From Paenibacillus timonensis (GTDB lineage: Bacteria > Bacillota > Bacilli > Paenibacillales > Paenibacillaceae), in the NCBI RefSeq assembly GCF_009725205.1, contig NZ_WNZY01000019.1, positions 1 to 64,000 of the forward strand: 64,000 nucleotides of DNA. The letters are read 5' to 3'. Below, one piece after another: positions 27,164 to 28,635 of the stretch (positions are counted from its first letter, which is position 1; every line of letters begins with the position of its first letter). A program made the position numbers and the translations under genes. The notes beneath the pieces were generated by a model, which was given only the letters and a program-made list of their open reading frames with translations, was not told the DNA's origin and did not search any database.

Positions 27164-27192
27164 TTTACGTTCTGGCGCGAATCTGGTAATAT
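27164..27192 (+). promoter_or_regulatory. Promoter of the T-box/asd unit
   Basis: TTTACG (27164-27169) and TAATAT (27187-27192) are 17 bases apart, just upstream of the T-box leader. Confidence 0.5.
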
Positions 27193-27203
27193 TATCGCAA
27201 CAT

Positions 27204-27500
27204 GAAATGCGATGACGAGATGAGTAGGTAAATGGAACCTTTCCCAGAGAGCTCCGGTAAGCTGCAAAGGAGCAAAGCGTTTCTTTATCGAATAAAGCCT
27301 CTGAGCAGCGCATCGGAACGCAAAGTCGGCGGGATGGTGTGACAGGAGCTCCTGTTATAGAGCTAGGGTATACGCTTGGCTGGGCCAGGCTGTACTTGAA
27401 GAGGTTAATATGGCGACATATTAACGAATCTGGGGTGGTACCGCGGGCATACCAATCTCGCCCCCAAGACGGAAGACTCGTCTTGGAGGTGGGATTTTTT
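27204..27500 (+). promoter_or_regulatory. T-box riboswitch with terminator, probable lysine specificity
   Basis: Stem I is recognisable from GAGTAG (27222-27227) and AGAGAG (27246-27251), with an apical helix GCTCC/GGAGC (27251-27255 with 27269-27273). The helix above the specifier loop pairs GGTAAA (27227-27232) with TTTATC (27284-27289). The loop strand then reads GAA-T-AAA-G, which puts AAA (27294-27296), a lysine codon, in the specifier position. A one-base shift to AAG is also lysine, and the other shift gives a stop. The conserved T-box GGGTGGTACCGCGG is at 27433-27446. The terminator stem (27454-27471 with 27479-27496) is followed by T residues. Uncharged tRNA would favour the antiterminator and switch on the asd gene. 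Confidence 0.92.
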
Positions 27501-27549
27501 ATTTTGGCGATGGTTAGAACACTTATATGGAAAGGACAGGATCAAACAA

Positions 27550-28635
27550 ATGGGTGAGAGATTGAAAGTAGGCATCGTCGGTGGGACGGGAATGGTGGGC
27601 CAGCGCTTCGTACAGCTGCTGGATCAGCACCCTTGGTTCGAGGTCACAGGCATAGCGGCCAGCGCGAATTCGGCAGGCAAAACGTATGAGGAGTCCGTGC
27701 AGGGACGTTGGAAAATGGCCACGCCGATCCCGGAAGCCGTTAAATCTATCGTAGTTCAGGACGCGGCCAAGGTTGAAGAAGTGACGGCAGATGTGGACTT
27801 CGTCTTCTGTGCGGTTGATATGAAAAAGGCTGAAATTCAAGCGTTGGAGGAAGCGTACGCGAAAACCGGTACCCCGGTCATCTCCAACAACTCGGCTCAC
27901 CGCTGGACGCCGGATGTTCCGATGGTGATCCCGGAAGTCAACCCGCAGCATATCGAAGTGATTGCCGCACAGCGCAAACGCCTCGGAACGAGCACAGGGT
28001 TCATTGCCGTGAAGCCGAACTGCTCGATTCAAAGTTACGTACCCGCATTAAATGCGCTGCTGGATTTTGAACCTACTACGGTGGTTGCTTCGACGTATCA
28101 GGCGATTTCCGGTGCCGGGAAGAACTTTACCGATTGGCCGGATATGCTGGATAACGTGATCCCGTATATCGGCGGCGAGGAAGAGAAGAGTGAGCAGGAA
28201 CCGCTGCGGATTTGGGGCCATGTGGATGGCGGGCAGATCGTCAAAGCAAGCTCCCCTTTAATTACGACGCAGTGCATCCGCGTTCCCGTGACAGACGGTC
28301 ACTTGGCAACCGTGTTCGTGTCGTTTAAGAACAAACCGTCGAAGGATGAAATCATTGGGCGCTGGCGCGGGTTCCAGGGCAGACCGCAAGAGCTGGGACT
28401 GCCAAGCGCACCAAAGCAGTTTATCACTTATTTTGAGGAAGAAAACCGTCCGCAGACAAAACTCGACCGTGATATTGAACATGGGATGGGGGTTTCGGTG
28501 GGTCGGTTGCGCGAGGATTCGCTGTACGACTATAAATTCGTTGGACTTTCGCATAATACATTGCGCGGAGCTGCAGGCGGAGCGGTACTCATTGCCGAAC
28601 TGCTGAAGGCGGAAGGGTATATCCAAGCGAAGTAA
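27550..28635 (+). CDS. asd: Aspartate-semialdehyde dehydrogenase, archaeal/fungal type
   Basis: The 361-residue enzyme has the NADP motif GGTGMVGQRFVQLL (residues about 11-24), the active-site cysteine in KPNCSIQSYVPAL (about residue 158) and the Asd pattern STYQAISGAG. Overall it fits the archaeal/fungal branch of Asd rather than the usual bacterial one. Asd makes aspartate semialdehyde, the branch point to lysine, diaminopimelate, threonine and methionine. It is preceded by a T-box leader that appears to sense tRNA(Lys), which suggests a role in lysine/DAP supply. AAGGACAGG lies near the start. Confidence 0.92.
   Translation: MGERLKVGIVGGTGMVGQRFVQLLDQHPWFEVTGIAASANSAGKTYEESVQGRWKMATPIPEAVKSIVVQDAAKVEEVTADVDFVFCAVDMKKAEIQALEEAYAKTGTPVISNNSAHRWTPDVPMVIPEVNPQHIEVIAAQRKRLGTSTGFIAVKPNCSIQSYVPALNALLDFEPTTVVASTYQAISGAGKNFTDWPDMLDNVIPYIGGEEEKSEQEPLRIWGHVDGGQIVKASSPLITTQCIRVPVTDGHLATVFVSFKNKPSKDEIIGRWRGFQGRPQELGLPSAPKQFITYFEEENRPQTKLDRDIEHGMGVSVGRLREDSLYDYKFVGLSHNTLRGAAGGAVLIAELLKAEGYIQAK

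Follow-up and report, generated by a model that had tools for sequence, protein, structure and literature searches.

The T-box leader and the asd gene

The window, that is, the whole 64 kb stretch of DNA analysed, contains a single Rfam match above the gathering score, which is a T-box (RF00230) located at 27203-27468 on the forward strand. It was found by cmscan with 105.2 bits (the gathering cut-off of this family is 93 bits) and an E value of 3.5e-22, covering the full model (1–219). The gene downstream is asd (27550..28635, +), encoding aspartate-semialdehyde dehydrogenase of the archaeal/eukaryotic type: the protein scores 352.7 bits against TIGR00978 (asd_EA), above the curated cut-off of 301.2, and only 97 bits against the asd_B model, below the cut-off of 324, so that the archaeal type assigned to it in the earlier note is upheld. 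The closest solved structures by sequence are the ASADHs 5jw6, 3hsk and 1ys4. The Asd proteins of Paenibacillus mellifer and P. rubinfantis are 98% identical to this one, which places the genome in Paenibacillus. A GNAT acetyltransferase gene (PF00583; 28668..29126, +) begins 32 nt 3′ of asd and is possibly co-transcribed with it; it was not seen 3′ of asd in the two relatives inspected. In these two relatives asd is followed by a ThiO-like oxidase gene and a transporter gene, and the same pair is located further downstream in the window.

The leader, running from stem I to the antiterminator (27203..27468, +), is preceded by a probable sigma-A promoter (27164..27192, +), read from the sequence as TTTACG and TAATAT separated by 17 nt, with TGG before the −10 element. 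A simple consensus promoter scan did not list this block, and a promoter-like GTTTAC...TAATAT block is also present upstream of the T-box in the aligned orthologs. Stem I (27208..27307, +), assigned by the Rfam alignment and covariation, includes the specifier loop, with AGUA at 27223-27226 and GAA at 27290-27292, and the distal AG-bulge region. It is followed in the Rfam alignment by the stem III hairpin GGUUAAUAUGGCGACAUAUUAAC (27403..27425, +) and by the antiterminator (27431..27466, +), which carries the T-box bulge with UGGU at 27436-27439. By folding, an intrinsic terminator with its U run is placed at 27454..27503 (+); the hairpin itself (27454-27496) folds with −33.3 kcal/mol (z −3.65), overlaps the 3′ arm of the antiterminator, with which it would compete, and the terminator ends about 50 nt upstream of the asd start.

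In 26 orthologous leaders, 95.8% of the cells in the stem I pairing are paired, and two-sided changes occur in 11 of the 21 pairs, a level equalled by none of 500 shuffles. When stem I was folded alone from the single sequence, the minimum free energy structure differed from the T-box fold (z +0.5); the fold is therefore accepted on the covariance model and the comparative covariation, not on single-sequence folding of stem I. The T-box leader proposed in the earlier note at 27204-27500 is thus borne out by the Rfam match, the terminator fold and the covariation of stem I, and, as far as sequence can tell, the leader before asd is an ordinary, canonical T-box in which all the testable family features are present.

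The lysine specifier and its tRNA

In the Rfam alignment, the specifier loop GAA-U-AAA-G is matched to the consensus GAA-a-uuc-a, with GAA at 27290-27292, U27293, the specifier AAA (lysine) at 27294-27296 (+) and then the purine G27297. These are the same coordinates at which the lysine specifier had been placed earlier, and the covariance alignment, which could have put another codon (e.g., Thr or Met) in this position, gives AAA. The orthologous leaders, whose comparison had been proposed at the same time, agree. A T-box lies upstream in 80 of the 80 closest asd loci of other genomes; the loop reads GAA-N-AAA-R in 81 asd leaders, in which AAA is constant and any base can stand at N; and AAA is found in 138/138 T-box-bearing asd leaders, a set in which some genomes, being present in both collections, are counted twice. 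The flanking bases are variable and the next base is a purine; four of the 138 leaders were unmatched by the pattern and read GAA-N-AAA-G by eye. The one-base shift, said earlier to encode lysine as well, gives AAR across the orthologs, which is again lysine.

The reading of the specifier was also calibrated within the genome (5.1 Mb), in which 20 T-boxes were found and the genes downstream of the calibrating ones were named by NCBIfam. In 13 leaders the triplet starting nine bases before the GAG of stem I encodes the amino acid with which the gene that follows is concerned: CUC (Leu) for leuA, leuS and ilvB, AGC for serA, UGG for trpS, GUC for valS, UAC for tyrS, AUC for ileS, CCU for proB, CCG for proS, UUC for pheS, AUG for metG and UGC for cysE. 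The same rule applied to the asd leader also gives AAA. Among the other T-boxes, the alaS and glyQ leaders are off by one, the thrS leader has UAG instead of GAG, no specifier was obtained for the hisS and serS leaders, and one T-box is without a gene. The deviations of spacing or GAG in the thrS, alaS and glyQ leaders are a caution for the automated reading of specifiers. The T-box without a gene (107.7 bits; contig C22, 41659-41879, minus strand) has no recognisable gene downstream and points at ABC-type genes on the opposite strand; it is possibly an orphan or relic.

As for the tRNA, the anticodon-arm pattern of tRNA-Lys, TGACTYTTAATCA, occurs at four places in the genome, with TTT in all of them; tRNA-Lys(UUU) was called by ARAGORN at three of the four, and there is no gene call for the fourth. 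The discriminator is A in the three called genes, which end in ...GGCTCA(CCA), and G in the tRNA-Ser and tRNA-Asn of this genome. The UGGU at 27436-27439 is complementary to the tRNA-Lys end ACCA, which contains the discriminator A. That is to say, both predicted contacts of the T-box, the specifier and UGGU, are matched by tRNA-Lys, through its UUU anticodon and its discriminator A, and three independent sequence-based tests (in-genome calibration, orthologs and tRNA) agree on a lysine specifier.

Copy number, L-boxes and distribution

Only one other PF02774 match exists in the genome; considered as a second asd (contig C15, 49172), it was rejected, being argC among the arg genes, and the T-box-bearing gene is therefore the only asd detectable in this genome. 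The dpaA-dpaB-dapG-dapA cluster, the usual one for sporulation and DAP, is present, and the asd slot between dpaB and dapG is empty. In the same genus, this slot is occupied by asd_B in 14 of 41 genomes, where neither a T-box nor an L-box was found at the slot (0/14), and just one of the 14 also has a T-box-bearing asd_EA. Asd is the branch-point enzyme leading towards lysine, the cell wall (DAP), threonine and methionine. As the gene is the sole asd found, threonine, methionine and the peptidoglycan precursors depend on it as well. The earlier suggestion that control of asd ties DAP/lysine supply to tRNA charging appears, from the gene content, to be understated, since the sole asd would serve threonine, methionine and peptidoglycan too.

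No L-box (RF00168) was matched by cmscan in the 64 kb window. Two L-boxes are present elsewhere in the genome, both away from asd and both before transporters: one gene codes for a LysP-like amino acid permease, and the other, named from its sequence, for a protein resembling the substrate-binding component of ABC transporters for amino acids; NCBIfam gave no match for the latter at the threshold applied. The same two types of gene were read downstream of 29 further L-box loci in the genus. Neither an L-box nor a T-box was found at lysC or dapG-dapA, and L-box control of asd, lysC or dapG-dapA was rejected, as none of them has an L-box. With L-boxes on the transporters and a T-box on asd, lysine import would follow the level of free lysine, and asd expression the charging of tRNA-Lys.

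In a scan of 41 genomes of the genus, the lysine leader motif was matched in 25 of the 28 asd_EA genomes; it is slightly altered in two others (G023 and G030), and asd_EA is without a T-box in G034. The motif is otherwise confined to asd_EA genomes of the genus: the matches in an asd_B-only genome (G017) and a second one in G035 lie inside apparent coding sequence and were rejected as chance. In a family sample of 101 genomes, 63 have asd_EA and 50 of these have the T-box before it. The 63 are made up of 34 with a sole asd and a T-box, 13 with a sole asd lacking it, and 16 that have both asd_EA and asd_B, the T-box being present in each of these. Elsewhere in the class, the asd_EA cut-off was passed in two of about 180 sampled genomes. 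The first, G069, belongs to another family and has two asd_EA copies, one of them with a T-box (83 bits), and also an asd_B-like match; its copies were possibly acquired by horizontal transfer. The second, G209, has a distant asd_EA sequence without a T-box.

The absence of the T-box in 13 of the 63 family genomes and in G034 means that T-box control is dispensable. In the protein tree, T-box-less asd_EA sequences are scattered over several positions, some of them branching within groups that carry the T-box, which fits repeated loss; the tree is unrooted, and gain versus loss is not proven by it. Ten asd_EA loci without a T-box were noted; the sequences upstream of them are of several dissimilar kinds, which points to the T-box having been lost or relocated more than once. 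The T-box is present in all the genomes that have both enzymes, which suggests that asd_EA started as a copy for times of lysine starvation and took the place of asd_B afterwards.

Proposed control of asd and its relation to known systems

The most probable reading, to which a probability of about 0.9 is given, is that asd, the sole copy found, is under the control of a canonical class I T-box, one that acts by transcription antitermination and is specific for tRNA-Lys(UUU). This reading is carried by the identity of the T-box, the specifier, the match with the tRNA, the sole-copy status and the conservation in the lineage, all of which are read from the sequences; that asd answers to a lack of lysine, and how strongly it does so in the cell, is inferred. 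When tRNA-Lys is charged, transcription of the leader would end at the terminator, at 27454-27500. When lysine is short, uncharged tRNA-Lys would pair by its UUU anticodon with AAA at 27294-27296 and by its ACCA end with UGGU at 27436-27439, so that the antiterminator would form and asd would be transcribed. Lysyl-tRNA charging would then govern how much aspartate semialdehyde is available for lysine/DAP, threonine and methionine, since asd_EA stands in place of asd_B as the sole copy found; the basal need for asd would be covered by leaky read-through.

Control by lysine only is physiologically awkward for a branch-point enzyme, which counts against this reading. Two other readings were weighed. 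One of them holds that the T-box is a decayed or little-used remnant, with asd expressed mostly by read-through and lysine control minor; the T-box is indeed missing from several lineages, and a sole asd is needed for threonine, methionine and DAP even under abundant lysine. It is considered unlikely, as the functional parts are all intact and covary across the family, and the invariance of AAA implies selection. The other is that specificity is relaxed, the T-box answering tRNA-Asn as well as tRNA-Lys, for which there is a precedent in Bacillus cereus, where the lysK T-box, with its Lys specifier, shows partial induction by uncharged tRNA-Asn (PMC2916919). The discriminator G of tRNA-Asn might form a wobble pair with the U of UGGU, and asparagine is likewise a product of aspartate; however, UGGU is better matched by the discriminator A of tRNA-Lys, and the 138 leaders have AAA and never AAC or AAU, which a dual Lys/Asn element might tolerate, so this reading is judged rather improbable.

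A shifted register in which another amino acid is read, such as serine from AGC at 27296-27298, deserves hardly any credence. The loop is long enough to allow several triplets, and TBDB weighs the −1 and +1 specifier frames beside the main one, but in the orthologs the +2 triplet is variable (AGA, AGC, AGG, AGU, AAC and others), the −1 triplet has any base before AA (NAA), so that a stop codon would be among its readings, and the +1 triplet is AAR, lysine in any case. Moreover, tRNA-Ser has discriminator G, and both the Rfam alignment and the in-genome calibration give AAA.

Lysine is among the least common T-box specificities in TBDB (PMC7778990). The earlier remark that tRNA-Lys control of asd would be uncommon therefore holds for the rarity of Lys T-boxes, and not within Paenibacillaceae having asd_EA, where it is the rule (50/63). 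Among the Lys T-boxes on record are those of lysK (class I LysRS) of Bacillus cereus/thuringiensis and of lysS of C. beijerinckii and Symbiobacterium; LysRS under T-box control has been reported in four species only, each with an unregulated second copy (PMC2916919). The asd leader shares with them the tRNA-Lys specificity, and the B. cereus target is likewise an archaeal-type gene, whereas asd is a biosynthetic enzyme and often the sole copy, theirs being an auxiliary synthetase. A Lys T-box is also predicted for the Lys-specific permease BH0807 of Bacillus halodurans (PMC2494555), which is again a non-synthetase gene, but a transporter. In other words, the Lys T-boxes recorded in the literature searched belong to auxiliary synthetase copies or a transporter; no report of a Lys T-box before asd was found there, and the major T-box surveys, TBDB or RegPrecise may list one.

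In anatomy, the leader resembles the Ser T-box of serA in Paenibacillus polymyxa, which was tested experimentally (PMC8002221), both having a complete stem I, stem III, a UGGN antiterminator and an intrinsic terminator; it differs in its lysine specifier and in its target, a branch-point gene and not one of a dedicated pathway. In many Firmicutes, the L-box (RF00168) governs lysC, asd and dapA, asd in some species (PMC5584792). The two systems would share one task, which is to make genes of the aspartate pathway, in some species asd as well, answer to lysine, but free lysine is sensed by the L-box and tRNA charging would be sensed by the asd T-box.

It may be, and this is put forward tentatively as somewhat short of an even chance, that over much of Paenibacillaceae the flux into the whole aspartate family is regulated, at the level of RNA, by lysyl-tRNA charging, the Lys T-box asd_EA having displaced the asd of the dpa-dap cluster and the L-box having been left on lysine import. 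If so, an excess of lysine would also limit the supply of threonine, methionine and DAP. What distinguishes the case is a rare Lys specificity on a branch-point gene, often the sole copy, throughout a lineage in which L-boxes control import only. The family also offers a natural comparison of tRNA-charging with free-lysine sensing, in genomes having asd_EA with the T-box, asd_EA without it, or a standard asd without an RNA switch.
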